Assembly (NCBI RefSeq): GCF_001570945.1
Contig: NZ_BCSQ01000033.1
Coordinates: forward strand, 1 to 37,010
DNA: 37,010 nucleotides
From: Janibacter anophelis NBRC 107843
Lineage (GTDB): Bacteria > Actinomycetota > Actinomycetes > Actinomycetales > Dermatophilaceae
Direction: 5' to 3'
Part shown: positions 1 through 35,941 of the stretch, one piece after another
Layout: each line of letters begins with the position of its first letter
Position numbering within the stretch: the first letter of the stretch is position 1
Translations under genes and position numbers: made by a program
Notes under the pieces: generated by a model
Seen by the model: only the letters and a program-made list of their open reading frames with translations
Databases searched by the model: none
Told to the model about the DNA's origin: nothing

Positions 1-916
1 CCCGCCGCGCCCGGTAGCGCTCCCGCTGGGCCGCGACGTGCTCGTCGTCGCGCACGGCCGCGAGCAGCGCGCGCTGCACCGGCCACGGGACGATCATCCC
101 GGCGTGCTTGCGCACCTCGAGCAGCTGCCGCACGAGCGCAGGGTCACCGGCGACGAAGGCCGCCCGGTACCCGGCGAGGTTGGACTGCTTGGAGGTCGAG
201 TAGACGGCGAGCAGCCCCTCGGTGGAGCCACCCGTGACGCGCGGGTCGAGGATCGAGGGCGTCGTGGGCAGCTCGTCGAGCGACTGCCCGCGCTCGGCCT
301 CGGAGCGCCAGTCCAGCTCGGCGTAGCACTCGTCCGACGCGACGACGACACCGCGCTCGCGGGCCCACGCGACGACCTTGGCCAGGTGCTCGACGCCGAG
401 GACCTTGCCCGTCGGGTTGCTCGGGGTGTTGAGCCACAGCAGCTTGGGCGCGCTCGAGGGCGTCGTCGGACCAAAGGCCGTCGTGGCGTCCGCGGCGAAG
501 GGGGTGGCCCCAGCGATCCGCGCACCCACGTCGTACGTCGGGTAGGCGACCCGGGGGAAGGCGACGACGTCGCCGGCGCCCAGCCCGAGCAGCGTGGGCA
601 GCCACGCGACGAGCTCCTTGGAGCCGACCGTCGGCAGCACCCCGTCCGGATCGAGGCCGGGCGCACCACGGCGCCGGGCGAACCAGTCTGCGATGCCCTC
701 ACGCAGGTCGGGGGTGCCCCACGTCTGCGGGTAGCCGGGGGCGTCCGCGGCGTCGCGCAGCGCCTGCTGGACGACCTCGGGGGTGGGGTCGACCGGGGTG
801 CCGACCGACAGGTCGACGATGCCCTCCCCCTTCGCCTCGTCAGGGGAGGAAAAGGCTCTCGCCCGCTCCTTGGCAGGAGCGAGCGAGTCCCAGGGGAAGT
901 CTGGCAAGGACGTCAT
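1..916 (-). CDS. dapC: Succinyldiaminopimelate transaminase DapC, C-terminus cut by window edge
   Basis: This is a fold-type I PLP aminotransferase. DapC makes N-succinyl-LL-2,6-diaminopimelate from the 2-amino-6-oxo precursor in lysine and peptidoglycan synthesis. The 305 visible residues begin MTSLPDFPWDSL and continue with IVDLSVGTPVDP, the actinobacterial DapC N-terminus. Seen further on are the NTPSNPTG segment, the PLP-contacting ASDECYAELDW segment, and the Schiff-base lysine in STSKQSNLAGYR. Family members are about 360 residues, so some 55 are missing off the left edge; no stop is seen. The ATG at 916 is chosen by homology, because I see no clear ribosome binding site. It follows fdxA after 91 bases, an order common in actinobacteria. 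A 7-bp inverted repeat (917-923 with 984-990) could fold the leader next to the start. Confidence 0.92.
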   Translation of the reverse strand, partial: MTSLPDFPWDSLAPAKERARAFSSPDEAKGEGIVDLSVGTPVDPTPEVVQQALRDAADAPGYPQTWGTPDLREGIADWFARRRGAPGLDPDGVLPTVGSKELVAWLPTLLGLGAGDVVAFPRVAYPTYDVGARIAGATPFAADATTAFGPTTPSSAPKLLWLNTPSNPTGKVLGVEHLAKVVAWARERGVVVASDECYAELDWRSEAERGQSLDELPTTPSILDPRVTGGSTEGLLAVYSTSKQSNLAGYRAAFVAGDPALVRQLLEVRKHAGMIVPWPVQRALLAAVRDDEHVAAQRERYRARR

Positions 917-1007
917 CACGAGGTCACACTGCGCTCTCGGTCGTGACTCCACGGCGCGCTGCGGGCCTCGGTCGCTGGCGCTCCCTCGTGTCCTCGCGCG
1001 CTTGTCG

Positions 1008-1334
1008 TCACTCCGCGTGCTCCTGCGGGGGCAGCGCGGCCACGATCGGGTGATCCTTGTCGATCATGCCCATCTTGGCGGCACCACCGGGGCTGCCGAG
1101 GTCGTCGAAGAACTCGACATTGGCCTTGTAGAAGTCGGCCCACTCCTCGGGGGTGTCGTCCTCGTAGTAGATCGCCTCGACGGGGCACACGGGCTCGCAG
1201 GCGCCGCAGTCGACGCACTCGTCGGGGTGGATGTACAGGCTGCGCTTGCCCTCGTAGATGCAGTCGACGGGGCACTCCTCGATGCAGGCCTTGTCCTTGA
1301 GGTCCACACACGGCTGCGCGATCACGTACGTCAT
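1008..1334 (-). CDS. fdxA: 7Fe ferredoxin (3Fe-4S/4Fe-4S)
   Basis: This small cytoplasmic electron carrier of 108 residues begins MTYVIAQPCVDLKDKAC, the standard start of actinobacterial FdxA/FdxC. The first cluster region has C-x7-C-x3-CP, with the spacing of a 3Fe-4S plus 4Fe-4S ferredoxin. The second cluster has the C-x2-C-x2-C-x3-CP pattern in CVDCGACEPVCP. The acidic tail with the segment FFDDLGSPGGAAK is typical of the family. An in-frame ATG three codons upstream (1343) exists, but 1334 matches the conserved N-terminus and would be the first base or so of a leaderless mRNA from the palindromic promoter at 1338-1352. It is divergent from the GNAT gene and upstream of dapC. Its redox partner cannot be read from the sequence. 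Confidence 0.96.
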   Translation of the reverse strand: MTYVIAQPCVDLKDKACIEECPVDCIYEGKRSLYIHPDECVDCGACEPVCPVEAIYYEDDTPEEWADFYKANVEFFDDLGSPGGAAKMGMIDKDHPIVAALPPQEHAE

Positions 1335-1337
1335 GCC

Positions 1338-1352
1338 CGACATACTATGTCG
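1338..1352. promoter_or_regulatory. Palindromic divergent promoter, overlapping -10 elements
   Basis: CGACATACTATGTCG is a perfect palindrome around a central C and fills most of the 22 bp between two divergent ATG codons. On the plus strand it contains TACTAT (1343-1348), ending 8 bases before the GNAT ATG. On the minus strand it contains TAGTAT (1347-1342), ending 7 bases before the fdxA ATG. Both are good -10 matches placed so that transcripts would start at or very near the A of each ATG. Neither gene has room for a Shine-Dalgarno leader. The -35 regions are weak on both sides. That the palindrome is instead an operator cannot be excluded. Confidence 0.65.
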
Positions 1353-1356
1353 CCCC

Positions 1357-2367
1357 ATGAGCGATCCGATGGTGGGTCTCACCACAGGGACACGGGTCGC
1401 GGTGCGCACCCGCATCGACCCGACGCCGGCGCACGGTCCGACCCTCACCGACACCGTCGGCGAGCTGACCGCCCTCGACGAGCACGGCCTGCGGATCGCC
1501 ACCCGGAGCGGCGAGGTGGCCCTGCGCCGCGACCTCGTCGTCGCCGCCCGCGCCATCCCGCCCCGCCCCACCCGCCGCGGCGCCCCGCACCGCGCGATCA
1601 CGATCGAGGACCTCCACCTCGTCATGACCAAGGGCCAGCCCGGCCTCGAGGAGGACTGGCTGGGGACGAAGGGAGCCGGCTGGCTCCTGCGCGCCGGCGC
1701 GCGGTGGACGGGCCGCTCGAACTCCGCTCTCCCCGTGGGCGATCCGGGCCATCCGCTGCCCGAGGCGGTCGACGCGGTCGAGTCCTGGTACCGCGAGCAC
1801 GGCCTGACGCCGCTCGTCATGCTCCCCCGTCCGCCGGGCGCGGCCACCGCGGACGACCCGCTCGGCGCGCTGCTGCTGGAGCGCGGGTGGGTCGAGGGCA
1901 ACCCCGCCGACGTGCTCACCGCGCGCACCGACAATCTCCTGCAGGGCGCCGCGCCCGCCCCCGAGGGCCTCACCCTGCACACCAGCGACCACGCCGACGA
2001 GGCCTGGCTGGCCGGCGGCTCACCCCGCCTGCTCGACCACCTCGACGTCGCACGCCGCATCCTCGCGCTGCCGGGGCGGCAGGTCTTCCTCACCGCCCGT
2101 GACGCAGGGGGCGTCGCCGGTGTCGTCCGCGTCGCGCTCGACGACGGCTGGGCCGGGATCTTCGGTCTGCACGTGCCCCCTTCGCACCGGGGCCGGGGCC
2201 TGGGCCGCTGGCTCACGCAGGAGGCCGCGCGCGCCGCCCTCGACGCCGGTGCCACCCTGACCTACCTGCAGGTCGAGCCGACCAACGAGCCCGCCCAGCA
2301 CCTCTACCGCGACCTGGGGATGACCCGCCACAGCGACTACGTCTACCTCGCGCTGCGCGACGCCTGA
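1357..2367 (+). CDS. Two-domain GNAT N-acetyltransferase
   Basis: This protein of 336 residues starts MSDPMVGLTTGTRVAVRTRI. The first 90 or so residues look like a small beta-rich (SH3-like) domain with a policy of short strands (VAVRTRI, LTALDEHGLRIATRSG). The C-terminal 140 residues are a GNAT fold with the acetyl-CoA loop in LHVPPSHRGRGLGRWLTQEA (R-G-x-G-x-G/R type), followed by YLQVEPTNEPAQHLYRDLGM, the usual last strand and helix. This arrangement resembles actinobacterial Rv0428c-like GNATs, some of which have been linked to N-acetylglutamate synthesis; the substrate here is unknown. The start is the first ATG after the palindromic promoter, implying a leaderless mRNA. The gene ends 25 bases inside the convergent PPTase gene. 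Confidence 0.85.
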   Translation: MSDPMVGLTTGTRVAVRTRIDPTPAHGPTLTDTVGELTALDEHGLRIATRSGEVALRRDLVVAARAIPPRPTRRGAPHRAITIEDLHLVMTKGQPGLEEDWLGTKGAGWLLRAGARWTGRSNSALPVGDPGHPLPEAVDAVESWYREHGLTPLVMLPRPPGAATADDPLGALLLERGWVEGNPADVLTARTDNLLQGAAPAPEGLTLHTSDHADEAWLAGGSPRLLDHLDVARRILALPGRQVFLTARDAGGVAGVVRVALDDGWAGIFGLHVPPSHRGRGLGRWLTQEAARAALDAGATLTYLQVEPTNEPAQHLYRDLGMTRHSDYVYLALRDA

Positions 2368-2955: not shown

Positions 2956-2974
2956 TAAGGATAGGCACACCAAA
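2956..2974. promoter_or_regulatory. Iron box (DtxR/IdeR-type operator) candidate
   Basis: TAAGGATAGGCACACCAAA matches 14 of 19 positions of the DtxR/IdeR consensus TTAGGTTAGGCTAACCTAA, including the central AGGC and the ACC half-site. It touches the A of the ATG at 2974. A bound repressor would cover the start of the fusion gene and lie 44 bases upstream of the divergent PPTase start. TAAGGAT inside it could also act as the -10 of a leaderless transcript, and AAGGA as a distant Shine-Dalgarno. Downstream genes encode a ferric-iron importer, which fits iron control. Binding itself is inferred. Confidence 0.65.
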
Positions 2975-5544
2975 TGACGATGACCGCGCGGCTCGACGAG
3001 GGACTTCACGCCCTCGGGACGTCCGTGCGCCCGGTGCCGACCCCCCTTCCGCTGCTGCACCCCACCTCCGCCGCCCCCGCGCTGGTCGCCGACGGAGCCA
3101 CGGTCAGCCACCACGAGCTCGCCGCCCGGGTCGCCTCCCTCGTCGAGCAGTTGCCGGCGACGACCACCGGACGTCGCCTCGTCCACCTGCCGCTCACCCG
3201 CCGGCTCGACGACGTCGTCGCCCACCTCGCCGTCCTCGCCGCCGGGCACGTGGCCCTGGTCACCGGGCCGGAGGCCACGTCGATCACCGGACGCTTCGCC
3301 CCGGACCTGCGCCTGCACGCGGGCGAGGTCGAGGTCCTCGAGCCGCAGGCCCAGCACCTCCTGCACCCCGACCTCGCCCTGCTGCTGTCGACCTCCGGCA
3401 GCACGGGCAGCCCCAAGCTGGTGCGGCTCTCCCGCGACAACGTGCTGAGCAATGCCACGGGGATCGCCCGGGCGCTCGGCCTGCGCAGCGACGACCGCGC
3501 GATCACCTCGCTGCCGCTGCACTACTGCTACGGCCTGTCCGTGATGCACAGCGTCCTCCACGCGGGGGGCAGCCTCGTCGTGACCGAGCACTCGGTGACC
3601 GACGACGAGTTCTGGCGGCTGCACACCGAGCAGCGGGTCAGCGTCCTCGCGGGGGTGCCGCACACCTTCGACCTCGTCGACGAGCGCCTGCGCGGTGACC
3701 TGCCCGGGCTGCGTCTGGTCACCCAGGCCGGTGGCGCCCTGCCGCCGGACCGGGTGCATGAGCTGGCGAGCCTCGGGCTCGAGCGCGGCTGGGACCTGGC
3801 GGTCATGTACGGCCAGACCGAGGCCACCGCCCGCATGGCCATCCACGTCGGCGCCGACGTCCTCGCCCGCCCCGCGGCGGTCGGCCGGCCGATCGCCGGG
3901 TCCTCCTTCCGCGTCGACCACGACGTCGACGACGCCGGCGACGGGACCGGCGAGCTCGTCTTCACCGGCCCCGGCGTCATGCTCGGGTACGCCGAGCACC
4001 CCGACGAGCTGGCCCTCGGCCGGATGGTCGAGGAGCTGCGCACCGGCGACCTCGGCCGCATCGACGACGGCGTCGTCACGGTCACCGGTCGCCGCGACCG
4101 GGTCGCCAAGGTGCTCGGGCTGCGCATCGACCTCGACCACGTCGCGAGTGCCCTCGCGGCCGCCGGCCACGACGCCGTGGTCACCGCGGACTCCCACCAC
4201 CTGCTCGTCACCCTCCCCCACGCCGACGAAGGGGGGCGCGCCGCCCTTCGTCGCACGGTGCGTGGTCTCACGGCCGAGGCGGCAGGGCTGCGCCCGGGAG
4301 CCGTGCTCGTCGCCGTCGTCGACGAGATCCCCCGCCTGCCCAACGGCAAGGTCGACCGGGTCGCCTGCCGGGAGCTGGCCCTGTCGACCGCACACGACGC
4401 ACCGGCGCCCGACCCCCGGCACGACCGGCTCGGCGCCGTCGTCGCCGTCATCGGCTCGGCCCTGGGCCGGGACGACGTCGACCCGGACCGGTCCTTCGCC
4501 GACCTGGGGGGCGACTCCTACAGCCTCGTGCAGACCTCGGTCCGGCTCGAGCAGGTCCTCGGCCGGCTGCCCGACGGCTGGCACCGCCTGCCGCTGCGCA
4601 CCCTCGCGGCCGAGGCGCGGCCGACCGGCCGCCACGTCCAGTGGGTCGAGACCCCGCTGCTCGTGCGGGCCGTGGCCGCGCTGGCGATCTGCGCCAGCCA
4701 CCTGGGGATCGTGGCCACCCCCGGCGGCGCCCACACCCTCCTCGCCCTGGCCGGCTGGTCGATGAGCCGCTTCACCCTCGACGACCCCCGACCACAGGAG
4801 CGGCGCCGACGCGGGCTGCGCTCCCTCGTCGGCCTGGCGGCTCCGTCGATGGCCGTCGCGCTCTTCGGCCTCGTCACGGCCGGCGGTTACACCTGGCACA
4901 ACGTGCTGCTCGTCAACTGGCTCATCGGCGAGATGGAGTGGGGCGCGCGGATCAACCTGTGGTTCATCGAGGCACTGCTCGCGTGCAGCCTCGCCGCACT
5001 CGCCCTGCTCTCGGTGCCCGCGCTCGCCCGGGCGCACGTGCGCCACCCTTGGGCGTGGAGCATGGCGCTGGCGGCCGCCGCGCTCGTGCCGCGGTGGATC
5101 CTCGTGCCGGACTCCACCGGCGCCACCCGTGGCCTGCCGGGGTCGGTCCTGTGGCTCTTCGCCATCGGCATGGCCCTGGGCGTCGCCCGCACCCACCGGC
5201 AGCGCCTGGCGACCCTCGCCCTCACCGCCGTCGGCATGTGGGACTTCTTCGTCGAGCCGAGCCGTGGATGGACGGTGCTCGTCGCCATCACCGTCCTGGC
5301 GCTCGTCCCGCGCGTCCCGCTGCCCCGTCTGCTCGTGTGGCCCCTCGGCATCATCGCCGCAGCGTCCCTGCACATCTACCTCGTCCAGTGGCAGGTCTTC
5401 CGGGTCGTCGACCACGCCTGGCTGGCCCTCGGCGCCTCCCTCGCGCTCGGAGCCCTCCTGTGGTGGCTCCTGCAGGCCCCGACCCGCACCCTCATCGACC
5501 GACTCGTCCACCCTCGTCCCCGACCCTCCGGAGATCCCTCATGA
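2974..5544 (+). CDS. Adenylation-carrier-membrane acyltransferase fusion (A-T-AT3)
   Basis: This 856-residue protein has three parts. Residues 1-470 are an ANL adenylation domain: phosphate loop STSGSTGSPK (139-148), LPLHYCYGLSV (180-190), YGQTEA (279-284), RTGDL (356-360), GRRDRVAK (372-379) and the catalytic lysine in LPNGKVDR (Lys459). Residues 485-548 are a carrier domain with LGGDSYS, the phosphopantetheine serine being Ser515. From about 560 to 850 there are some 9-10 hydrophobic segments resembling the acyltransferase-3 family (VRAVAALAICASHLG at the start, SLHIYLVQWQVF near the end). There is no condensation or thioesterase domain. The architecture suggests that one acid or amino acid is activated, loaded and passed by the membrane domain to an acceptor, by analogy to the separate DltA/DltC/DltB proteins. 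The acid cannot be predicted. The next gene overlaps by ATGA. An iron box lies at the start. Confidence 0.85.
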   Translation: MTMTARLDEGLHALGTSVRPVPTPLPLLHPTSAAPALVADGATVSHHELAARVASLVEQLPATTTGRRLVHLPLTRRLDDVVAHLAVLAAGHVALVTGPEATSITGRFAPDLRLHAGEVEVLEPQAQHLLHPDLALLLSTSGSTGSPKLVRLSRDNVLSNATGIARALGLRSDDRAITSLPLHYCYGLSVMHSVLHAGGSLVVTEHSVTDDEFWRLHTEQRVSVLAGVPHTFDLVDERLRGDLPGLRLVTQAGGALPPDRVHELASLGLERGWDLAVMYGQTEATARMAIHVGADVLARPAAVGRPIAGSSFRVDHDVDDAGDGTGELVFTGPGVMLGYAEHPDELALGRMVEELRTGDLGRIDDGVVTVTGRRDRVAKVLGLRIDLDHVASALAAAGHDAVVTADSHHLLVTLPHADEGGRAALRRTVRGLTAEAAGLRPGAVLVAVVDEIPRLPNGKVDRVACRELALSTAHDAPAPDPRHDRLGAVVAVIGSALGRDDVDPDRSFADLGGDSYSLVQTSVRLEQVLGRLPDGWHRLPLRTLAAEARPTGRHVQWVETPLLVRAVAALAICASHLGIVATPGGAHTLLALAGWSMSRFTLDDPRPQERRRRGLRSLVGLAAPSMAVALFGLVTAGGYTWHNVLLVNWLIGEMEWGARINLWFIEALLACSLAALALLSVPALARAHVRHPWAWSMALAAAALVPRWILVPDSTGATRGLPGSVLWLFAIGMALGVARTHRQRLATLALTAVGMWDFFVEPSRGWTVLVAITVLALVPRVPLPRLLVWPLGIIAAASLHIYLVQWQVFRVVDHAWLALGASLALGALLWWLLQAPTRTLIDRLVHPRPRPSGDPS
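4224..4253. repeat. Inverted repeat with CGACGAAGGG arms inside the adenylation domain
   Basis: CGACGAAGGG (4224-4233) and its exact complement (4244-4253) enclose a 10-base GC-rich centre. It encodes part of the surface-like stretch HADEGGRAALRR (about residues 416-427) between the catalytic subdomains of the fusion protein. The same arm sequence recurs at 14192 and 16273. Confidence 0.7.
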
Positions 5545-6563
5545 ACCGCCGCACCCTGCTCACGACCGTCGTCGGCACGACGGCAGCCCTCGCCCTCACC
5601 GCGTGTGGTGGCTCGGAGGGACCGACGACCGACCCCGACGCGCTGCAGATCTACTCCAGCCAGCACGACAACCTCACCAAGGCGTGGGCGAAGGGGTTCA
5701 CCGACAAGACCGGGATCAAGACCCAGATCCGCCCCGGCAAGGACTCGTCGATGGGCCACCAGATCGTCGAGGAGGGTGACGCCTCGCCCGCCGACGTCTT
5801 CCTCACCGAGAACAGCCCCGCGATGACCCTCGTCGAGGACGCCGGGCTGCTCGCACCCGTCGACGCCAAGACCCTCGCCCAGGTGCCGGAGAACCGTCGC
5901 CCGTCGAGCGGTGACTGGACGAGCGTCGCCGCCCGCTCGACCGTCCTGGTCTACAACCCCGACAAGGTCTCGAAGGACGACCTGCCGGCCTCGCTCATGG
6001 ACCTGCAGCAGCCGGAGTACAAGGACCAGTGGGGCGCGGGGGCCACGGGCGCCGACTTCCAGGCGATCGTCGCCGGCATGCTCGCCGACCAGGGCGAGGC
6101 CAAGACGAAGACGTGGCTCGAGGGCATGAAGACCAATGCCCGGATCTACGAGAACAACATCGCGACGATGAAGGCCGTCAACGCCGGTGAGGTCCCGATG
6201 GGCGTCATCTACCACTACTACTGGTACCGCGACCAGGCCGAGACCAAGGAGGGCACGGCCAACACCGCGCTTCACTACTTCAAGGGTGAGGACCCGGGCG
6301 CCTTCGTCAGCCTCTCCGCCGCCGGCGTGCTCAAGAACGCCAAGCACGCCGACGAGGCCCAGCAGTTCGTCGACTACATCCTCTCCGAGGAGGGGCAGGC
6401 CGTCCTCGAGTCGAGCGGCTCCAAGGAGTACGCCGTGGCGAAGGGGGTCGACTCCGACCCCGACCTGCCGACGCTCGAGTCCCTCCAGGCGCCCGCCGTC
6501 GACCCATTCTCCCTCGACTCCGAAAAGGTCACCCAGCTGATGACCGATGCCGGCATCCTCTAG
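5541..6563 (+). CDS. Fbp/Sfu-type ferric iron ABC transporter, substrate-binding lipoprotein
   Basis: This protein of 340 residues captures Fe(3+) outside the membrane and hands it to the permease at 6547. It begins MNRRTLLTTVVG with a hydrophobic signal and a lipobox LTAC (Cys22). The Arg pair is a partial Tat-like motif. The mature part starts with QIYSSQHDNL, where His42 corresponds to the early histidine ligand of FbpA proteins. The tyrosine pair in YHYYWYRD (Tyr226-Tyr227) is the classic ferric-ion ligand pair. Length is normal for the family. The ATG lies in ATGA shared with the stop of the fusion gene, so translation is probably coupled. A ligand other than free ferric iron, such as a chelate, is possible. 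Confidence 0.92.
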   Translation: MNRRTLLTTVVGTTAALALTACGGSEGPTTDPDALQIYSSQHDNLTKAWAKGFTDKTGIKTQIRPGKDSSMGHQIVEEGDASPADVFLTENSPAMTLVEDAGLLAPVDAKTLAQVPENRRPSSGDWTSVAARSTVLVYNPDKVSKDDLPASLMDLQQPEYKDQWGAGATGADFQAIVAGMLADQGEAKTKTWLEGMKTNARIYENNIATMKAVNAGEVPMGVIYHYYWYRDQAETKEGTANTALHYFKGEDPGAFVSLSAAGVLKNAKHADEAQQFVDYILSEEGQAVLESSGSKEYAVAKGVDSDPDLPTLESLQAPAVDPFSLDSEKVTQLMTDAGIL

Positions 6564-11643: not shown

Positions 11644-12551
11644 CGGCGCGCCACGAGCGGCGGACGCTCCCCCGGGACGGTGGCCGGCAGGGGCTGCCCG
11701 GTGACGACGTCGAGCCGGGCGTAGCCCTCCCGTCCGGGCAGGCGGGCGGCGATGTCGTTGGACAGGGCGTACGTGTCGCGCGGACCGAGCGTCACCTGAG
11801 TGCGGTGGTGGCGAAGGGCGGCGCGCTGGTGGTCGACCGCCGTCTCGTCGACGACCGCGTGCGTGACGACCGCGTCGTCGACGACCGAAGGGGGGAACGG
11901 CCCGGTCGGCAACGACCAGCCCAGTCCGCGCACCTCGTCGGTCACGGCGAGCACGTCGCGGTCCTCCTGGGCCCACGAGCGCGGGGTGAACGTACCGAAG
12001 AGGGCCGGGCGGCTCCCTTCGTCCATCGCCGCCAGGGACCGGCGGGTGACCTCGTGCGTGCGGATGTGGTCGGGGTGGGCGTAGCCGCCCTGCGCGTCGT
12101 AGGTGACGACGATGTCGGGCCCGATCGAGGCGACGACGGCGGTGACGGCCGCGACCGCCTCGGCGTCGTCGGAGCGCACCCACGCGCGCGGGTCCTGCGC
12201 GCTCGGGCTGCCGGCCATGCCGGAGTCGCGCCACCGGGAGAGCCGACCGGTCGCGGGGTCCTCGCCGAGCACGGTGCTGCGCGCGCCGATCGCGGTCATC
12301 GCGCCCCGCAGCTCGTCCCGGCGGAACTCCCCGAGGGTGTCCTCGTGCTCGGCGTCCAGGTGCGCCAGCTCGGTCGGGATGACCTCGCCCTGCTCGCCGA
12401 GGGTGCAGGTGAGGACGTGCACCTCGTCACCGGCCGCGACGTGGTGGGCGATGGCCACGCCCGTCGCCAGGCTCTCGTCGTCGGGGTGCGCGTGGACGAA
12501 GAGCAGCCGCGCGGGCCGCCCGGGCACGACCACCGGCTCGGCGAGCATCAT
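11640..12551 (-). CDS. mshB: GlcNAc-Ins deacetylase MshB (mycothiol biosynthesis)
   Basis: MshB is a zinc metalloenzyme that removes the acetyl group from 1-D-myo-inosityl 2-acetamido-2-deoxy-glucopyranoside, giving GlcN-Ins, the second committed intermediate of mycothiol. In 303 residues I see the LmbE/PIG-L zinc motif HAHPDDE near residue 20-26 and the third zinc histidine in YAHPDHIRTHEV (about 157-168). TCTLGEQGEV, typical of MshB, is also present, and the length is normal. The paralogue Mca, which cuts mycothiol conjugates, has related motifs. The context beside typA and an LpqW-like gene, as in mycobacteria and Streptomyces, favours MshB. The first of two adjacent ATG codons overlaps the upstream stop by ATGA. 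Confidence 0.92.
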   Translation of the reverse strand: MMLAEPVVVPGRPARLLFVHAHPDDESLATGVAIAHHVAAGDEVHVLTCTLGEQGEVIPTELAHLDAEHEDTLGEFRRDELRGAMTAIGARSTVLGEDPATGRLSRWRDSGMAGSPSAQDPRAWVRSDDAEAVAAVTAVVASIGPDIVVTYDAQGGYAHPDHIRTHEVTRRSLAAMDEGSRPALFGTFTPRSWAQEDRDVLAVTDEVRGLGWSLPTGPFPPSVVDDAVVTHAVVDETAVDHQRAALRHHRTQVTLGPRDTYALSNDIAARLPGREGYARLDVVTGQPLPATVPGERPPLVARR

Positions 12552-14293
12552 CGCGCCACCCCCACGGCGCCGATCTCGGGGACCCCGCCGTAGATCGGGT
12601 TGCCGATGAGCGAGGTGACCTCGGAGCCCGCGGCATAGGTCAGCCGGCTCTGGCGAAGGGGGATGTACACGCCGTCCTCGAGCAGGTCGGTGTCGATGGC
12701 CGCCCAGCGCTTGGCCCGGTCCTCCCGGTCACGGGTGGCCGCGGCCTTGTCCATCGCCGCGGTCACCTGCTTGTCGGCGAACTGCCCGTAGTCGCGCCCG
12801 ACGCTGTCGCCGCCGAGGTTGATCCGGTCGTCGAAGAGGGGCGGCAGGACGGTGCTCGCGGAGGGGACGTCCGGGCCCCAGTTGGCCCACAGGACGTCGT
12901 ACTCCCCGGCCACGTCGCGGGTGCCGATCTCGGTGAAGTAGTCCTCGCCGAGGGCCTTGAGGGTCACGTCGAAGCCGGCCTCCTCCCAGCCGCTCTCGAG
13001 TGCCTTCATCGCGTCGTCCATGGTCCCGCCCCCACGGTAGGCGACGGTGATCTTCACGGGGGTGTCGACCTTCGCCGTGGTCAGGCGCCGACGCGCGGTC
13101 GCGCTGTCGCCCGAGGGGCCGCGGTCGATGACGGTCTCGTGCCGGGAGGGCAGGGCGGCACCGAGCAGCGACCAGGTGGGCGTGCCCGACGCGGCGCCCC
13201 GCGCCTCGGTGTAGGCGCCCCGGTCGGTGGCCTCTGCCAGGGCCCGGCGCACCGAGGCCGAGCGCAGGGCCTTGCTGCGGGTGTTGACCGCGAGGTAGTC
13301 GACGAGCTGCCCGTCGACCTGCACAGCCTGGACACGGTCACCGGCCTCGTCGATCGCCGGCCCGAGGACGCTCGGCACCGGGTCGAGGGCCAGGGTGCGT
13401 CCGCCGTCCTCCCCGTCGATGATCGTCTCGAGGGCGTCCTTGGCCTCCACGCCCTCCTTGTGCAGGATCGTCGTCGGTCCGGGCGTGCGCAGCGGGTCGC
13501 TCGCGCGGCTCCACTCCGGGTTGCGCACCCACGTGCCGCCGGTGCTGGGGGTCCAGGCCTCCTGCAGCTTGTACGGGCCGGAGGAAAACGCGTCGTGCAC
13601 GGCGTCGTCGCCCTCGCGCGACTCCTTGTACGGGGCGAACTCGGGCAGCGAGACGACCTCGTCGAAGTTGCCGACCGCCTCGTCGAGGTGGAAGACGACC
13701 TTGCGCTCGCCGCGGCACTCGACCGCCTCCTCGATGAGCTTCCGAGAGGCCTTCGAGGTGCCCCCCTTCGCCAGGGGGCCGGGATAGGTGGAGGTGCCGT
13801 CCTTCTTCTTCGGGATGTCGAGGAAGGTCAGGGCGTAGCCGCTCGAGGGGATGTCCGCGTCGAAGGACCGGGCGACGCCGTACTGCACGTCGGCGCAGGT
13901 GACGGGCGAGCCGTCCTGCCACGTCGCCCCCTTGCGCAGGGTGAAGGTCCAGGTGCGCGCGTCCTTGCTCGCCGTGCCGGTGCTCGTGGCGAGGTCACCC
14001 TCGAGCCGCCGCTGGGCGGACACGGAGGTGGCCGGCGCGTAGGCCGTGAGCGTGCGCATCCACGTGCGGGAGGCGAAGCCGGCGACCTGGCGCTGGGTGA
14101 TGCGCTGCGGGTCCCAGGCCTGCACCGGACCGGCCGAGACGACCGTGAGCCGGTCGTCGGGACCGCTCACCGATCCGGTGGTCGCGCTGCCCGACGAAGG
14201 GGAGTCGCCCCCTTCGTCGGTGCACGCGGACCCGCCCGCCGCGATGGCGAGCGCTCCGGATCCGGCGATCAGTCCTCGAACGATGCGCCGCAC
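12548..14293 (-). CDS. Family 5 solute-binding lipoprotein, LpqW-like
   Basis: This lipoprotein of 581 residues starts at GTG 14293, with AGGAGG overlapping the typA stop. The signal peptide MRRIVRGLIAGSGALAIAA ends in a GSAC lipobox (Cys24). The mature part has SBP_5 features: TWTFTLRKGATWQDGSPVTCADV and YDVLWANWGPDVPSAST near the C-terminus. No permease or ATPase gene accompanies it. It lies between typA and mshB, the same neighbourhood as lpqW (Rv1166) between typA (Rv1165) and mshB (Rv1170) in Mycobacterium tuberculosis. LpqW there has an SBP fold but affects mannolipid synthesis rather than import. An LpqW-like role is therefore plausible but inferred; a peptide-binding role with the neighbouring importers is the alternative. 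Confidence 0.82.
   Translation of the reverse strand: MRRIVRGLIAGSGALAIAAGGSACTDEGGDSPSSGSATTGSVSGPDDRLTVVSAGPVQAWDPQRITQRQVAGFASRTWMRTLTAYAPATSVSAQRRLEGDLATSTGTASKDARTWTFTLRKGATWQDGSPVTCADVQYGVARSFDADIPSSGYALTFLDIPKKKDGTSTYPGPLAKGGTSKASRKLIEEAVECRGERKVVFHLDEAVGNFDEVVSLPEFAPYKESREGDDAVHDAFSSGPYKLQEAWTPSTGGTWVRNPEWSRASDPLRTPGPTTILHKEGVEAKDALETIIDGEDGGRTLALDPVPSVLGPAIDEAGDRVQAVQVDGQLVDYLAVNTRSKALRSASVRRALAEATDRGAYTEARGAASGTPTWSLLGAALPSRHETVIDRGPSGDSATARRRLTTAKVDTPVKITVAYRGGGTMDDAMKALESGWEEAGFDVTLKALGEDYFTEIGTRDVAGEYDVLWANWGPDVPSASTVLPPLFDDRINLGGDSVGRDYGQFADKQVTAAMDKAAATRDREDRAKRWAAIDTDLLEDGVYIPLRQSRLTYAAGSEVTSLIGNPIYGGVPEIGAVGVAR
14192..14219. repeat. Perfect 11-bp inverted repeat inside the lipoprotein linker
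   Basis: CGACGAAGGGG (14192-14202) and its exact complement (14209-14219) enclose a 6-base loop. In the minus-strand gene this encodes DEGGDSPSS directly after the lipobox cysteine, a flexible linker that tolerates insertions. Geometry (11-bp stem, 6-base loop) and sequence match the element at 16273-16300. Confidence 0.8.
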
Positions 14294-16272: not shown

Positions 16273-16300
16273 GACGAAGGGGGGACCCTCCCCCTTCGTC
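16273..16300. repeat. Perfect 11-bp inverted repeat in the typA / importer intergenic region
   Basis: GACGAAGGGGG (16273-16283) and its complement (16290-16300) enclose the 6-base loop GACCCT. It lies 71 bases upstream of the typA start and far upstream of the divergent lipoprotein gene. It is therefore not where a terminator of either operon should be; it may fall in the typA leader. Confidence 0.8.
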
Positions 16301-20273: not shown

Positions 20274-21349
20274 ATGACCGCCCCCACACCCGACCACACC
20301 CCGGGCAGCGCTACCGAGCGCGCCCCCGGGCGCGCTGCCGGCACCCCACTGCTGTCGGTGCGCGACCTGTCGGTGACGTTCACGCGGCAGGGGCAGACCC
20401 CCTTCGCCGCGGTCGACGGGGTGAGCTTCGACGTCCAACCCGGACAGACCGTCGGTCTCGTCGGTGAGTCCGGCTGCGGCAAGTCGGTGACGTCGCTGGC
20501 GATCATGGGTCTGCTCCCCCAGCGTGGCAACACGGTGACCGGGACCGTCGACCTCGAGGGCACCGACCTGCTCTCGCTCTCCGACGCGCAGATGCGCGCC
20601 CGGCGCGGCAGCGACATCAGCATGATCTTCCAGGACCCGCTGTCCTCGCTCAATCCGGTCGTGCCGATCGGTCGGCAGGTGACCGAGGTGCTCGAGCGGC
20701 ACAAGGGGATGTCCCGCAAGGAGGCGACGCCGCACGCGCGCGACATGCTGGCGCGGGTCGGGATCCCCGACCCCGACCGCCGGCTCAGGGACTACCCCCA
20801 CCAGCTCTCCGGTGGCATGCGCCAGCGCGCGCTCATCGCGATGGCCCTGGCCTGCGAGCCGCGGCTGCTCATCGCCGACGAGCCGACGACCGCGCTCGAC
20901 GTGACGATCCAGGCACAGATCCTGGCCCTGCTGCGCGAGCTCGTCGAGGAGACCGGCACGGCGCTGATCATGATCACCCACGACCTCGGGGTCGTCGCCG
21001 GCCTGTGCGACGAGATCAACGTCCTCTACGGCGGACGCCTCGTCGAGCGGGCCGGCCGCCACGAGCTCTTCGCCGAGCCCCGCCATCCCTACACCGGCGG
21101 GCTGCTCGCGAGCGTGCCGAGCCTCGACGGCGAGCGGGGTGCCCGCCTCGTCCCCGTGCCCGGGTCGGTCGCCGACAACCTGCCGTGGACGAGCTCGTGC
21201 GCCTTCGCCCCGCGCTGCTCGAGCGCGGGCGAGGACTGCCGCGAGGCCACCCCGGGGCTGGCCGTCCGCGGCACCCGCGCGCTGCGCTGCTTCCACCCGC
21301 TGAACGGCGAGCCCTCCCCCGTCGAGGGCAGCACGACCGAGGAGGTCCG

Positions 21350-22507: not shown

Positions 22508-22532
22508 CCCGGCACTGCGGATTCACCCACGA

Positions 22533-22581
22533 CGACGAAGGGGGCGCCCCACCGGTGATCGGTGGGGCGCCCCCTGCGTCG
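22533..22581. terminator. Bidirectional hairpin terminator shared by two importers
   Basis: A perfect 15-bp stem (22540-22554 with 22560-22574) closes a 5-base loop GTGAT. It is extended after a 2-base mismatch by CGACG (22533-22537) with CGTCG (22577-22581). It fills the 87-base gap between the convergent ATPase genes. There is no T-run, which is usual in GC-rich actinobacteria. The left arm carries a copy of CGAAGGGGG. Confidence 0.85.
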
Positions 22582-22594
22582 CGCGGGCTCTGCG

Positions 22595-23740
22595 TCAGGC
22601 GCCGGCGGTCGAGGTGTCCGCGTCGGCGGACCCGGCGTCGGCGTGGACCGCCTGACCGGCGGCGACGGCGTCGGTCTGGTCGACCAGGCCCTGGCCGGCG
22701 AAGAGGCCACCCTGGTCCTCACCGCTGACGTCCTGGGTCTCCACGATGACCCGGGGCTCGGCGAAGTGGCAGCGGGAGGGGTGCTCGCCGGAGCCGTCCG
22801 AGTGCAGCACCAGCTGCGGGGTCTCCGTGCGGCAGATGTCCTGTGCCTTCCAGCAGCGGGTGTGGAAGTGGCAGCCCGCCGGTGGGTTGGCCGGCGACGG
22901 CACGTCACCCTGCAGGACGATCTGGTCACGCTTGCCGCGCAGGGTCGGGTCCGGCACCGGCACCGCGGACAGCAGCGCCTGGGTGTACGGGTGCGTCGGC
23001 CGCGCGTAGATGTCGTCCTCGTCACCGATCTCGACCATGCGGCCGAGGTACATGACCCCGACGCGGTCGGAGATGTGCCGCACGACCGACAGGTCGTGGG
23101 CGATGAAGATGTACGACAGCCCCAGCTCGTCCTGCAGCTTTTCCATCAGGTTGATCACCTGCGCCTGGACGGACACGTCGAGCGCGGAGACCGGCTCGTC
23201 GCAGATGAGCACCTTGGGGTTGAGCGCGATGCCGCGGGCGATGCCGATGCGCTGGCGCTGGCCACCCGAGAACTGGTGCGGGTAGCGGTTGATGTGCTCG
23301 GGGTTGAGGCCCACGAGCTCCAGCAGCTCCTGCACGCGACGGGTGCGGTCCCCCTTCGGCACGACGTCCGGGTGGATCTCCAGCGGCTCGGCCACGATCT
23401 CACCGACGGTGCGCCGCGGGTTGAGCGACGTGTACGGGTCCTGGAAGACGATCTGGATGTCGCGACGCAGCTTGCGCATGTCGCTGCCCGACTGGGCGTA
23501 CATGTCGACCCCGTCGAAGTCGACGGTGCCCTCGGTCGGCTCCTCGAGCCGCATGAGCAGCCGGCCCAGCGTGGACTTGCCACAGCCGGACTCGCCCACG
23601 ATGCCGAGGGTCTCACCCTTGTAGAGCTCGAAGTCGATGCCATCGACCGCCTTGACGTGGCCGACCGTGCGGCGCAGCACGCCACCCTTGATCGGGTAGT
23701 GCTTCTTCAGGCCACTGGCCTTGAGGATCACCTCAGGCAT
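22595..23740 (-). CDS. Peptide ABC importer 2, ATPase (DppF/OppF family)
   Basis: This ATPase of 381 residues has Walker A GESGCGKS, the Q-loop region [14 protein letters not shown], signature FSGGQRQR, Walker [13 protein letters not shown] and H-loop IAHDLSVV. The OppF-type cysteine segment [14 protein letters not shown] follows. The last 50 residues are acidic and Ala/Gly-rich, without recognisable domain. It is clearly related to the ATPase at 21350, which it meets tail to tail. The ATG at 23740 overlaps the upstream ATPase stop by 8 bases. It is the last gene of importer 2. Confidence 0.94.
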
Positions 23741-28700: not shown

Positions 28701-30815
28701 TTATCCCTCGACGACGCGGTCCAGGGAGATCGGCACCCGATCGGGTCCGGCGAGCGGGAGTCGCCAGTTGGGGTACTCCTCGTCCGTCCCGGGCTGGTTG
28801 ACCGCGCGGACGTCGCCGACGAGGTCGGTCAGGGCGATGCCCCGCAGGCGCGAAGGGGTCAGCTCCAGCCAGCGGTGCAGCGCGGCCACCACGTCGGCGA
28901 CCGGTGCGTCGACGTCGGCCAGCAGGCCACGCTCGGTGAGGGCCTCCCGGACGGCGCGGATGCTCCCTTCCTCCGCGGCGCGCTCCTCCTCGACCGGCCG
29001 GGTGAGCAGACCCAGCCGCTCGCGGATCGCGACGTGCTCCAAGGCGAGGTACCCGGCGCTCGGCGGCAGGTCGTGGGTGGTCACGGTCGCCAGGCACAGC
29101 TCGCGGTACTCCTCCGGGGGCAGCGGCCGCCCGTCCTGCCCCCACTCGAACCACGCGACGCTCGTGCCGAGGATGCCGCGCTCGACGAGGTGCTCACGGA
29201 CCCACGGCTCGACGACACCGAGGTCCTCCCCGATGACCAAGGCCCCGGCCCGGTGCGCCTCGAGGGCGAGGATGCCGATGAGCGCCTCGTGGTCGTAGCG
29301 CACGTAGGCGCCCTCACCGGGGCCGGCGTCCTCGGGCACCCACCACAGGCGGAAGAGTCCGATGACGTGGTCGACCCGCAGCCCGCCCGCGTCGGCGAGC
29401 ACCGCCCGGATCATGTCGCGGAAGGGGGCATAGCCCAGCTCGGCGAGCCGGTCCGGCCGCCACGGGGGCTGGGACCAGTTCTGCCCGAGCTGGTTGAACT
29501 GGTCGGGCGGCGCGCCCACGTCGATCCCGCGGGCGAGCGCGTCACCGAGCGCCCAGGCGTCGGCTCCCTCGGGGTGGATGCCGACGGCGAGGTCGGCGAT
29601 GACCCCGATGCCCATCCCGGCGGCGCGCAGCCGCTGCTGGGCAGCCGCGAGCTGGGCCCGCACGACCCACTGCGTCCACGCGACGAAGGAGATCTCGCCA
29701 CGGTGCGCCTCCCGATGGGCCTCCACCGCCGGCGAGACGGGGTCGTGCAGCTCCTCCGGCCACTGGGTCTCCCAGAGCGTGCCGTGGGTCGCGGCGAGCG
29801 AGCACCAGGTCGCGAAGTCCACGAGCGCCTGCCCCTCGCGGGCGTGCAGGGCCTCGACCTCGTCGGCGTGCGTTGGGCCGAGGTGGCGGAAGGCGGTGCG
29901 CAGCGCGGCCCGCTTGAGCTCCCAGACCGCGTCCCGGTCGATGGTGTCGTGCTCGTTGAGCTCCCGGGCGCGTGCCGCGAGCGCGTCGACCTCGGCGCGG
30001 GCGGTGGGCGGCAGGTCGTCGAGACCGGGCAGCGTGCGCAGGTCGATGTGCACGGGGTTGAGGAACCGGCGCGAGGTCGGCAGGTACGGCGAGGGCTCCA
30101 TCGGCGCGACCGGCTCGGCCGCGTGGAGCGGGTTGACGAGGACGAAGTGGGCGTCGTGCGCCCGGGCGGCCCACTCCCCCAAGGTCGCCAGGTCGCCGAG
30201 GTCCCCGATGCCCTGGCTGCCCGAGCCGCGCACCTGGTAGATCTGCGTCATGAGCCCGCTGCGGGGTGCCTCCTGCACCACAGGTGGCAGGTCGAGTCGC
30301 TGCGGGACGGTGACGAGCACCGCGTGCTCCGTCCCGGCGGCCACCGGCCCGCCGTCGACCTCGGCGCGCAGCGCGTGCCACCCCAGGGGCAGGTGCGTCG
30401 GCACCTCGAAGGCCGCCTCCCCCACGAGCCGCCCGTCGATCTCCACCGGCTCGACGACGTGCTCGAGCTGGTCCAGCTCACGGGCGGCGCCCCCTTCGAG
30501 CTCGACGTGGACCCGCACCGCCGCCCCGTGCGGCACGTGCACGAGGAGGCGAAGGGGGTCCCCCTCACGCTGCACGACGGTCGGGGGCAGGGTGCGGCGC
30601 CACGGCGCCGTGCGGGTGCGCTCGAGGGCGGTCGCGACCGCCGCGTCGTCGGAGACGTCCTCCCCCATGGCCGTGAGGACGGCGCGCAGCGACGAGGTGG
30701 GGACCACGCGGTGCTCGCCGCGCCAGTCCCACCACTGGGTGTCGACCCCCTTCGCCCGTGCCAACGCCTCGAGGCCCTGGTCCGCGTGCCCCGCTCCGCC
30801 CACCGCATCGCTCAC
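28701..30815 (-). CDS. malQ: 4-alpha-glucanotransferase (amylomaltase, GH77)
   Basis: MalQ disproportionates maltooligosaccharides by moving glucan chains between molecules in the cytoplasm. From GTG 30815 it has 704 residues. The N-terminal 180 residues form the beta-rich extension found in actinobacterial and enterobacterial MalQ. The GH77 domain then starts with SGLMTQIYQVRGSGSQGIGD. The nucleophile is the Asp in GGLRVDHVIGLFRLWW, the acid/base Glu lies in VIGEDLGVVE, and the transition-state stabiliser Asp in TTHDLPP. Ribosome binding sequence is weak (GGGTTGG), so a slightly later GTG (30803) is possible. It is divergent from the pirin gene over 54 bases. No other glycogen gene is nearby. 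Confidence 0.92.
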   Translation of the reverse strand: MSDAVGGAGHADQGLEALARAKGVDTQWWDWRGEHRVVPTSSLRAVLTAMGEDVSDDAAVATALERTRTAPWRRTLPPTVVQREGDPLRLLVHVPHGAAVRVHVELEGGAARELDQLEHVVEPVEIDGRLVGEAAFEVPTHLPLGWHALRAEVDGGPVAAGTEHAVLVTVPQRLDLPPVVQEAPRSGLMTQIYQVRGSGSQGIGDLGDLATLGEWAARAHDAHFVLVNPLHAAEPVAPMEPSPYLPTSRRFLNPVHIDLRTLPGLDDLPPTARAEVDALAARARELNEHDTIDRDAVWELKRAALRTAFRHLGPTHADEVEALHAREGQALVDFATWCSLAATHGTLWETQWPEELHDPVSPAVEAHREAHRGEISFVAWTQWVVRAQLAAAQQRLRAAGMGIGVIADLAVGIHPEGADAWALGDALARGIDVGAPPDQFNQLGQNWSQPPWRPDRLAELGYAPFRDMIRAVLADAGGLRVDHVIGLFRLWWVPEDAGPGEGAYVRYDHEALIGILALEAHRAGALVIGEDLGVVEPWVREHLVERGILGTSVAWFEWGQDGRPLPPEEYRELCLATVTTHDLPPSAGYLALEHVAIRERLGLLTRPVEEERAAEEGSIRAVREALTERGLLADVDAPVADVVAALHRWLELTPSRLRGIALTDLVGDVRAVNQPGTDEEYPNWRLPLAGPDRVPISLDRVVEG

Positions 30816-33434: not shown

Positions 33435-33505
33435 GCCCCATTGTCCCCATGGACCCCCGCCGGCGGGAAGGGGGGCACGCCCCGATCTCCCACCCGCCTC
33501 TCCCC

Positions 33506-33589
33506 GTCGTCAGGCCCAAGCGATCAGGCCCAGGTCGTCGGGCCCAGGTCGTCGGGCCCAGACTTTCAAGCCCAGGTCGTCAGGCCCGC
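33506..33589. repeat. Six-copy 14-bp tandem repeat (minisatellite)
   Basis: Six units of 14 bases follow without gaps, consensus GTCGTCRGGCCCAG. Units 3 and 4 are identical, and units 1, 2, 5 and 6 have 1 to 5 changes. The array covers the last codons and stop of the deaminase gene (stop 33566-33568 lies in unit 5) and continues into the spacer before the USP gene. Confidence 0.88.
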
Positions 33590-34021
33590 CCGGTCGTGCG
33601 ACCCCTGCGGCCACACCGCCCGCACGATCCCGGCGGCGGCCAGCGCCTTGCGGCAGCCGGGGCACGGGGGGTCGGTGATGTAGGCCGTCGCCCCCTTCGT
33701 GTCGCGGGTGGCGAAGAGCAGCGCGTTGACCTCGGCGTGGATCGCGATGCAGAAGCCGGGCGTCCCGGGCCGGTCGTAGTCCCCGAGCCCCGGAACGGTG
33801 TCGTAGTCGAGGGCTCCCCGGGGGCAGGCGCCCTCGAGGCAGTCCGGCTCGCCCGGCGCGGCTCCGTTGTATCCCGTGGCGATGATCCGGTGGTCGATCG
33901 TCAGCACGGCGCCGACGCGGCGCCGGGTGCACTTGGCCCGGGCGGCGACCGCGGTCGCGATGCCGAGGAAGTACTCGTCCCAGCTCGGCACGCTCGGCGA
34001 GGGAGGCATCAGGTCGGGCAT
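33566..34021 (-). CDS. dCMP deaminase-like zinc deaminase
   Basis: This protein of 151 residues starts MPDLMPPSPSVPSWDEYFLGIA. WDEYFLGIATAVAARAKCTRRRVGAV is the dCMP deaminase N-terminus (quoted in part as SWDEYFLGIA). RIIATGYNGAAPGEPDC follows, then the zinc and catalytic motif IHAEVNAL and the second zinc motif PPCPGCRKAL. This subfamily converts dCMP to dUMP for thymidylate synthesis. A more general cytidine or tRNA deaminase is less likely. AGGA lies 8 bases before the ATG. The C-terminal residues GLTTWA and the stop are encoded by a 14-bp tandem repeat, so the tail length could vary between strains. Confidence 0.87.
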   Translation of the reverse strand: MPDLMPPSPSVPSWDEYFLGIATAVAARAKCTRRRVGAVLTIDHRIIATGYNGAAPGEPDCLEGACPRGALDYDTVPGLGDYDRPGTPGFCIAIHAEVNALLFATRDTKGATAYITDPPCPGCRKALAAAGIVRAVWPQGSHDRAGLTTWA

Positions 34022-34073
34022 GGGCAGATCCTAGGCACCGCTCTGCGGAACCCGGCGCGCCCCCACCGAGATG

Positions 34074-34090
34074 CCGGTGGTAGACACCGG
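34074..34090. promoter_or_regulatory. Inverted repeat at the MFS start codon
   Basis: CCGGTG-N5-CACCGG overlaps the first GTG of the MFS gene. The gene has no Shine-Dalgarno sequence here. It could be an operator for a TetR- or MarR-like regulator or a hairpin hiding the start. Neither is proven. Confidence 0.4.
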
Positions 34091-35298
34091 TGGTGAGCAG
34101 CCACGAGACGACGCGACGGACCCTCCCCTTCGGTCCCGTCCTCATCCTCTCGGCCGTGGCGCTCATCTCGGTCAACCTGCGTCCCGGCGCGACCTCCCTC
34201 GGCCCGCTCCTCGAGGAGGTGCGCGCCGCCCTCGGGCTCGGCGGGACGCTCGCCGGCGTGCTCACGGCGCTGCCGGGCCTGGCCTTCGCCGCGGCCGGTG
34301 GCGCCGCCGTCGGCCTGGCGCGCCGGGTGGGTGTCTCCGCCGGCATCACCCTCGGGGTCGTCGCGGTCGTCGTCACCCTCATCGCGCGCGTCCTCACCGA
34401 CTCGGCCGCCGTCTTCCTTGTCCTCACCGCGCTGGGGCTGGCCGGCATGGGGCTGGGCAATGTCCTCGTCCCCGCGTGGATCAAGGCCCACTCCCACGAC
34501 GGCGGCGTGCGGCTCATGACGATCTACGGCATGGGCCTGACGATCGGTGGCACCGCCGGTCCGCTCCTGGCCGCCCCCGTCGCCGCGTCCGCCCCCGGCG
34601 GGTGGCGCGGCGCGCTCGGCATGTGGGGCGTGGTCGCCCTCGCCGCGCTCGTCCCGTGGGTGGTCATCACGCTGCGGGACCGGGTCCACCGTCGGTCGGC
34701 GGGCGAGAACCCGACCTCGCGCATCCGGCACTCGCCGACCGCGATCGCGCTGACGGTCCTCTTCGGCGTCCAGTCGACCAATGCCTACGTGCAGTTCGGC
34801 TGGCTGCCCCAGATCTACCGTGACGCCGGCATCTCGGCGACGGGCGCCGGCGCACTGACCTCCGTCCTCGCCGGTCTGGGCATCCTCGGCGGCCTCGTCA
34901 TGCCGACGGTCATCGCCCGCAGCCGCGACCTGTCGGCGTGGATGGTGGGCTTCGGCCTGCTGGCCGCCGGCGGTTACCTCGGGTTGCTGCTCGCACCAGC
35001 CACGGTGCCGTGGCTGTGGGTCGTGCTCCTCGGCCTGTCGGGCTTCGCCTTCCCCACCGCCATCGCCCTCATCACGGCCCGGACCCGCGACCCGCACGTC
35101 ACGGCCCAGCTGTCGGGGTTCGTCCAGCCCGTCGGGTACCTCCTCGCCGGCATCGGCCCCTTCCTCGTCGGGGTCCTGTACGAGCTGACCGGCGGGTGGA
35201 CGCTCGTGCTCGTGCTGCTCATGGCGACCGGTGTCGGCATCACGCTCAGCGGACTGCGCGTCGCGCGCCCGGTCTTCGTCGACGACGAGGTCGCCTGA
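34090..35298 (+). CDS. MFS transporter, CynX/NimT family
   Basis: This protein of 402 residues has about 12 membrane helices. The first is followed by VNLRPGATSLGPLLEEV, the signature of the CynX/NimT branch (NLRPxxTSxGPLL). GVLTALPGLAFA, LVPAWIKAHSHDGG and, in the second half, FGVQSTNAYVQFGWLPQIYRDAG also fit that branch. Members carry cyanate, 2-nitroimidazole or unknown compounds, so the substrate is open. Two GTG codons, 34090 and 34093, can start the protein. Both lie in or beside an inverted repeat and neither has a clear ribosome binding site. It ends 1 base before the convergent thiE stop. Confidence 0.88.
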   Translation: MVSSHETTRRTLPFGPVLILSAVALISVNLRPGATSLGPLLEEVRAALGLGGTLAGVLTALPGLAFAAAGGAAVGLARRVGVSAGITLGVVAVVVTLIARVLTDSAAVFLVLTALGLAGMGLGNVLVPAWIKAHSHDGGVRLMTIYGMGLTIGGTAGPLLAAPVAASAPGGWRGALGMWGVVALAALVPWVVITLRDRVHRRSAGENPTSRIRHSPTAIALTVLFGVQSTNAYVQFGWLPQIYRDAGISATGAGALTSVLAGLGILGGLVMPTVIARSRDLSAWMVGFGLLAAGGYLGLLLAPATVPWLWVVLLGLSGFAFPTAIALITARTRDPHVTAQLSGFVQPVGYLLAGIGPFLVGVLYELTGGWTLVLVLLMATGVGITLSGLRVARPVFVDDEVA

Positions 35299-35299
35299 C

Positions 35300-35941
35300 T
35301 CACCCCCACGCGGCGAGGCAGGCGGCGACGACCGCGCCCGGGTCCGGGGCGTCCATGACCTCGCGCACGAGCGCGACACCCGCGATGCCGGTCGCCGCGA
35401 GCGCCGGGACGTCGGCGAGGGTCACGTCCCCGATCGCCAGCACCGGCAGGTCCGTGGCGGCCGCGCGAAGGGGGTAGCCCGCCAGCCCGACGGGTGGGCG
35501 CCCGACGTCCTTGGTCGGGGTCCGGCGGAAGGGACCGCTCCCGAGGTGGTCCGGTCGGCCCGACCCGGTGCGCGACTGCGCCTCGCGCACGTGGTCGAGG
35601 GTGCCGGCGGTGAGCCCGACGACCGCGTCGGGGCCGAGCAGGTCGCGTGCCGCGGCGACGGGCAGGTCCGCCTGGCCCAGGTGGACGCCGTGCACGGGGG
35701 CTCCGCGGCGCCGCGCGGCGTGGGCGACGTCGGCCCGGTCGTTGACGAGCACCCGGGTGGTCGGCGCGACCCGCTCGACCGCGTCGGCGACCGCGCGGAC
35801 GAGGTCGAGCAGCTCACCCGCGAGCAGGTGCTTCGCCCGCACCTGGACCACGCCCGCCCCGGCCGCGGCCGCCGCGGCGGCGACGGCCACGGTGCGCGGA
35901 CCGTCGCCCGACGTGACGAGCTGGACGCGGTGGTCGATCAC
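35300..35941 (-). CDS. thiE: Thiamine-phosphate synthase ThiE
   Basis: ThiE joins HMP diphosphate to thiazole phosphate carboxylate or THZ-P, forming thiamine phosphate. The protein has 213 residues. Visible motifs are VVQVRAKHL (diphosphate-binding Arg/Lys), LVNDRADVA, VHGVHLGQADLP, VVGLTAGTLDH, HLGSGPFRRTPTKD and PVLAIGDVTLADV. The GTG at 35941 overlaps the thiM stop by GTGA, which decides the start. Together with thiM it forms a thiazole salvage and coupling pair. No THI-box riboswitch is visible, since the operon starts outside the window. Confidence 0.9.
   Translation of the reverse strand: MIDHRVQLVTSGDGPRTVAVAAAAAAAGAGVVQVRAKHLLAGELLDLVRAVADAVERVAPTTRVLVNDRADVAHAARRRGAPVHGVHLGQADLPVAAARDLLGPDAVVGLTAGTLDHVREAQSRTGSGRPDHLGSGPFRRTPTKDVGRPPVGLAGYPLRAAATDLPVLAIGDVTLADVPALAATGIAGVALVREVMDAPDPGAVVAACLAAWG

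Follow-up and report, generated by a model that had tools for sequence, protein, structure and literature searches.

A putative DNA uptake sequence with several dialects in Janibacter and other Dermatophilaceae

Sequence-specific uptake of DNA is described for two bacterial families, the Pasteurellaceae and the Neisseriaceae, in a 2016 review (PMC5031613). The present analysis concerns a 37,010-nucleotide stretch of Janibacter anophelis NBRC 107843 (contig NZ_BCSQ01000033.1, positions 1 to 37,010 of the forward strand; hereafter the window) and the 9-mer CGAAGGGGG, which recurs along it. With a probability of roughly 0.7, this word (consensus GRCGAAGGGGGH) is judged to be a non-palindromic self tag, the DNA uptake sequence of Janibacter (genus g1) and of a related genus, g35. 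The sequence-only reading of the window had held that no uptake sequence was established in actinobacteria; none was found in the open literature, among the matches listed, nor was any report of this word or of the others described below (most subscription papers lie outside that literature). No open paper on natural transformation in Janibacter was found.

The DNA uptake sequence (DUS) of the Neisseriaceae (ATGCCGTCTGAA and its dialects, with ComP as receptor) is a short non-palindromic word in hundreds to thousands of copies. It lies on both strands, in genes and spacers and in inverted pairs, and has several dialects per family, which differ between related species (PMC3630211). All these features are shared by the words described here. 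Unlike the DUS, the word is an unrelated one in a Gram-positive host with tad genes, no ComP is known, and uptake is predicted from sequence. With the uptake signal sequence (USS) of the Pasteurellaceae (AAGTGCGGT) it shares a length of 9 bp, a copy number of about 1,000 or more and inverted pairs, which for both DUS and USS are reported in terminators (PMC1852404, and for the USS PMC5031613). It differs from the USS in the word itself, in a host without an outer membrane and in having only a weak downstream excess of C and then T. The flanks of the USS are AT-rich; such flanks were not seen here. In Micrococcus luteus, whose competence genes comprise comEA/comEC and two tad clusters, transformation needs comEC and both tad clusters according to PMC4322843, in which the term 'uptake sequence' occurs 0 times. 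Genome G000 likewise carries a comEA-like gene and comEC after leuS, together with tad clusters.

A recount of the window returned the 20 exact copies of CGAAGGGGG noticed in the sequence-only reading, 10 on each strand, between positions 496 and 35474 (Table 1). Dinucleotide shuffles of the window (n = 100) gave a mean of 0.45 copies and a maximum of 3. Our own gene calls placed 17 copies within genes and 3, at 16275, 16290 and 22536, within spacers. The draft genome to which the window belongs (3,308,605 bases, 124 contigs) contained 935 + 915 copies, about 1 per 1.8 kb; the reversed pattern occurred 15 + 11 times. A 437-kb sample of this genome, made up of 20 stretches of 20 kb and the window, was scanned for over-represented 9-mers. 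CGAAGGGGG came out on top with 274 copies, against 16.5 expected under an order-4 Markov model and 6.4 when the motif was masked. The consensus proved slightly longer than the 9-mer, with G (74%) and R (75%) before CGAAGGGGG and a following base that is seldom G, and was written GRCGAAGGGGGH. The exact word was about 40-fold above expectation, and most single-mismatch neighbours were near expectation. Four neighbours were 3- to 9-fold over-represented: CGAAGGGAG (67 vs 7.1), CGAAGGGGA (37 vs 6.4), CGAAGGGGT (29 vs 8.3) and GGAAGGGGG (16 vs 2.4). An excess of T downstream of the motif was due in part to inverted pairs. After removal of 47 sites with a close neighbour, a weak downstream excess of C and then T stayed, as it did in genome G063; a faint second arm would give such an excess.

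Genes were called with a home-made caller (435 genes, 91% coding in the 437-kb sample). Within them, 203 copies were found against 31.7 ± 4.5 after within-gene synonymous codon shuffling (60 shuffles, maximum 40) and 30.2 after codon resampling (20 runs). The copies occupied all six reading phases (sense 2, 58 and 40; antisense 11, 72 and 20). The sequence-only reading had described several reading settings in both orientations, which holds, and had put their number at five, which does not. Its argument that one codon pair could not be the cause is borne out by the codon-shuffle excess and the six phases, and codon pairs were rejected as an explanation on these grounds. A compositional artefact was likewise rejected, the counts in the 437-kb sample being far above both the Markov and the codon-shuffle expectation; a frequency near expectation, set beforehand as the first of two refuting outcomes, was not seen.

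Copies were 3.7-fold denser in spacers (1.87/kb) than in genes (0.51/kb), with 3.99/kb in convergent, 1.89/kb in tandem and 1.38/kb in divergent spacers. Eight of the ten close pairs in spacers were inverted. Five of these eight were in tandem spacers, two in divergent ones and one in a convergent one; the window's own inverted pair (16275/16290) is in a divergent spacer, not a convergent one. Spacing was more even than random, with a coefficient of variation of 0.730 against 0.917 ± 0.054 (0 of 1000 random sets as low) after pairs less than 100 bases apart had been merged. Local strand skew was absent from the own-genome sample (chi2 15.8 over 21 pieces). In the closed chromosome of G063, 18 stretches held 114 copies on one strand and 117 on the other (chi2 20.4), with single stretches reaching 9:1 and 2:10. 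The pattern proposed from the window, of a short word on both strands, in genes and spacers and in inverted pairs as in the DUS and USS, was thereby borne out.

Copies were then counted in 186 genomes of the family (Dermatophilaceae/Intrasporangiaceae) and 273 genomes of 19 other families. CGAAGGGGG was enriched in 16/16 Janibacter genomes (797-1,860 copies) and in all three genomes of g35 (1,317-1,939 copies). It was not enriched in the 167 other genomes of the family (11-80 copies, at most about 4 times the reversed control) or in the 273 genomes from other families (maximum 101 copies). A LeuS search, which gave Janibacter indicus at 90% identity, identified g1 as Janibacter. Twenty-five further named loci (L075-L099) had 0 or 1 copies each. 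In one 20-kb locus of g35 (L198, genome G091) the neighbour CGAAGGGGT was also over-represented (3 + 5), possibly as a sub-dialect.

An unsupervised 9-mer scan of loci of 12 to 37 kb each gave other words in other genera, RCGGCATAC and RCGGCATCC, which had not been foreseen in the sequence-only reading. RCGGCATAC was found in Knoellia, Phycicoccus, Terrabacter, Intrasporangium, Ornithinimicrobium and others. When enrichment was taken as 150 or more copies and no less than 3 times the control, 113 of the 186 genomes of the family, from 32 of 53 genera, qualified, with up to 3,538 copies and near-equal summed strands (73,646 vs 73,496). Genomes of Janibacter and g35 contained only 4-25 copies, and it was at background in 220/220 sampled genomes from outside the family (at most 92 copies, near control). 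RCGGCATCC was strong (8 to 18 times control) in seven genomes (G017, G018, G034-G037 and G178), in four of which (G017, G018, G034 and G035, all within the 113) RCGGCATAC was the minor word. Two g15 genomes carried both words together in similar numbers, RCGGCATAC 861 and RCGGCATCC 1,215 times in G036 and 827 and 1,175 times in G037, as if caught between dialects. A milder excess of RCGGCATCC, up to about 6-fold, in other genomes, mostly those with RCGGCATAC, is what near-matches would give. Genomes without a word also occurred inside word-bearing genera (G083, beside G084 and G085; G008; G113). In 29 pooled RCGGCATAC loci, 215 copies were in genes against 19.4 after codon shuffling, strands were 144 vs 157, and density was 0.79/kb in spacers against 0.45/kb in genes. 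Pooled Streptomyces loci also scored high and were disregarded as homologous copies of one locus. In a 20-kb locus of g48 (L226, genome G167), CGTCATAC (5 + 7) was over-represented beside CGGCATAC (5 + 7) and is possibly a further dialect.

The family thus looks to have at least three dialects, CGAAGGGGG, RCGGCATAC and RCGGCATCC. These words in other genera are the strongest new support for an uptake sequence, since the DUS, too, is known to have dialects that vary from one related species to the next. The words were mapped on a LeuS tree of 50 rows, a midpoint-rooted single-gene tree that places outgroups between branches of the family; G090 was omitted as a short fragment. Five of the six CGAAGGGGG rows formed one clade (support 100/99), and RCGGCATAC was spread across most parts of the family. 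For the latter reason RCGGCATAC is probably the ancestral word. RCGGCATCC is probably another derived one, in a history that is tentative. LeuS of G092 (L199) grouped with genomes from the Nostocoides side, apart from Janibacter and G091, perhaps through transfer of leuS.

The window was aligned with 10 relatives. Sites of CGAAGGGGG were lost mainly through substitutions, yet 13-23 copies were present in each 40-kb relative stretch. Foreign DNA was represented by 27 transposase loci from 7 of the 19 Janibacter and g35 genomes, some of them overlapping or identical. Transposase-centred sequence contained 0 copies in 27.0 kb, and the whole loci 5 copies in 97.8 kb, that is 0.05/kb against about 0.3-0.56/kb genome-wide in the seven genomes.

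The comEA/comEC and tad genes that the sequence-only reading had proposed to look for are present in G000, where comEC is preceded by a comEA-like gene after leuS and tad clusters were located on contig 7 (two) and contig 64. Except for comEC and the secretion ATPases, gene names were assigned from sequence and gene order or place, not by family search. By their gene make-up, two of the G000 clusters appear to correspond to the M. luteus pair. A further tad cluster was seen on contig 7 (20001-40000, L034); these 20 kb hold only 4 words and are perhaps accessory DNA. The six Janibacter and g35 genomes searched lacked the higher-scoring secretion ATPases (215-242 bits, possibly PilB-like) that were found in 6 of 14 others.

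The exact word, its use of both strands, its even spacing, the spacer pairs, the near absence from mobile DNA, the turnover at constant density and the dialects together point to an uptake sequence maintained through biased uptake, and so support the interpretation first put forward for the window, with a function that stays a prediction. Competence would be active in these bacteria and the tag would be read at uptake by a reader protein. A minor Tad/Flp pilin of the competence filament, or another surface receptor, would bind free DNA at the tag, ComEA and ComEC would import one strand, and recombination would then swap out the resident allele. Copies would arise by point mutation, and tagged alleles, being taken up more often, would spread (biased gain, a molecular drive) and keep density high despite the turnover of single sites. 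It is also rather probable that sequence-specific uptake arose independently in this family, for the third time overall and the first time in Gram-positives. The system would comprise a family-wide tag read by a Tad/Flp pilus, with RCGGCATAC as ancestral word, RCGGCATCC derived from it more than once, CGAAGGGGG as a very different word, two-word genomes (G036 and G037) and lineages with loss.

Several observations weigh against this account. ComEC was found in 180/186 family genomes, whether they have a motif or not, so comEC does not predict the motif and the presence of competence genes in the host does not discriminate. Pilins of tad cluster 1 were shared by genomes of each of the three dialects and by G154, a genome where no motif is strong; variation in TadF1, the one pilin aligned, did not sort by dialect, and a search among tad pilins yielded no receptor. 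In G063, despite 1,860 copies, tadA1 is truncated after 277 aa (L050, 1739-2569), and tadB1-G1 were not in the 1.7 kb behind it; competence may have been lost recently, or the cluster may not be needed. The 29 pooled RCGGCATAC loci are for the most part copies of the same genomic region, and their copies in genes are crowded into two of six phases (175/215). Five genera that lack the words yielded no other strong word in samples of 47-103 kb; one of them, G158, showed a mild RCGGCATCC excess. Prophage depletion was attempted through Phage_portal (PF04860), which had matches in 0/19 Janibacter and g35 genomes. Coding sites of CGAAGGGGG were kept in 41/85 site-by-genome cells (0.48; five nearest genomes, cells not independent), about as often as GAAGG-like control 9-mers (1,576/3,410, 0.46), against 259/1,156 (0.22) for 9-mers of the same composition. 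Selection on single sites was dropped for this reason; retention like that of the GAAGG controls together with a steady copy number indicates that density is maintained, not single sites. Finally, G063 showed a possible weak leading-strand excess (129 vs 102), in a sum that takes the origin from the dnaA-like gene at the contig start and assumes the terminus opposite.

The last observation would suit the main rival, a Chi-like site read by AdnAB or RecBCD that promotes recombination, with dialects as changes in the enzyme. Chi sites resemble CGAAGGGGG in being short, abundant and lineage-specific, and the word is non-palindromic as well. Known Chi sites are clearly biased to the leading strand. 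CGAAGGGGG is without a clear replication-strand bias in G063, its strands are near equal overall with no significant skew from stretch to stretch, and over-even spacing and inverted spacer pairs have no obvious Chi reason. A Chi function is judged unlikely, and less likely than uptake. An FtsK-orienting polar sequence (KOPS), or another signal of replication strand, shares with the word its abundance only; no strong strand skew along replichores, the second refuting outcome set beforehand, was found in the own-genome pieces or in the one closed genome, G063, where any replichore excess is weak at most. This agrees with the earlier argument from equal strand use and makes such a signal extremely improbable.

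Even spacing and equal strands would fit a spacing or folding role, that is, a lineage-specific site for an abundant protein that organises the chromosome or otherwise binds DNA, and word-less genomes keep comEC. Against such a site, single copies show turnover within the genus and no special conservation, and the occurrence of three words in the family, together with two mixed genomes, fits drive better than a structural site, which makes this reading quite doubtful. A short word with only weak flank biases (downstream C then T) beyond GR...H could also be a by-product of biased mutation or repair, or a short mobile repeat. Neither would account for a roughly 40-fold excess of the exact word over expectation with most single-mismatch neighbours near expectation, and no extended repeat was found in a word confined to certain genera. 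The transposase-centred DNA speaks against them too, although recent arrivals would lack the word under any slow process. HIP1 of cyanobacteria is an abundant palindrome, and CGAAGGGGG is not its own complement. Mutation bias or a mobile repeat is accordingly considered improbable.

Table 1. Exact copies of CGAAGGGGG in the window and their location by our own gene calls; gene strands are given in brackets.
Copy	Position	Strand	Location
1	496..504	+	in gene 2-916 (-)
2	826..834	-	in gene 2-916 (-)
3	2176..2184	-	in gene 1369-2367 (+), GNAT acetyltransferase
4	4227..4235	+	in gene 2974-5544 (+), AMP-binding enzyme
5	6439..6447	+	in gene 5541-6563 (+)
6	11886..11894	+	in gene 11640-12551 (-)
7	12654..12662	+	in gene 12548-14293 (-), solute-binding protein
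8	13762..13770	-	in gene 12548-14293 (-), solute-binding protein
9	14208..14216	-	in gene 12548-14293 (-), solute-binding protein
10	16275..16283	+	inverted pair, arm 1; divergent spacer between typA (14307-16202, -) and solute-binding protein gene (16509-18167, +)
11	16290..16298	-	inverted pair, arm 2; same divergent spacer
12	19284..19292	+	in gene 19255-20268 (+), transport permease
13	20398..20406	-	in gene 20274-21353 (+)
14	22536..22544	+	in convergent spacer 22508-22594
15	23350..23358	-	in gene 22595-23740 (-)
16	30490..30498	-	in gene 28701-30803 (-), malQ-like
17	30550..30558	+	in gene 28701-30803 (-), malQ-like
18	30746..30754	-	in gene 28701-30803 (-), malQ-like
19	33691..33699	-	in gene 33566-34021 (-)
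20	35466..35474	+	in gene 35300-35941 (-)

If CGAAGGGGG and its counterparts are uptake sequences, uptake specificity arose again in single-membrane bacteria, and neither an outer membrane nor a type IVa pilus would be needed for it. The family would then offer a natural series that runs from one common word and its one-base variant to a very different one, and includes mixed genomes as well as word-less genomes within word-bearing genera. Changes in uptake specificity, and the way in which it isolates species, could be tested on this series. The words would also suggest a tag for donor DNA when these bacteria are to be transformed.

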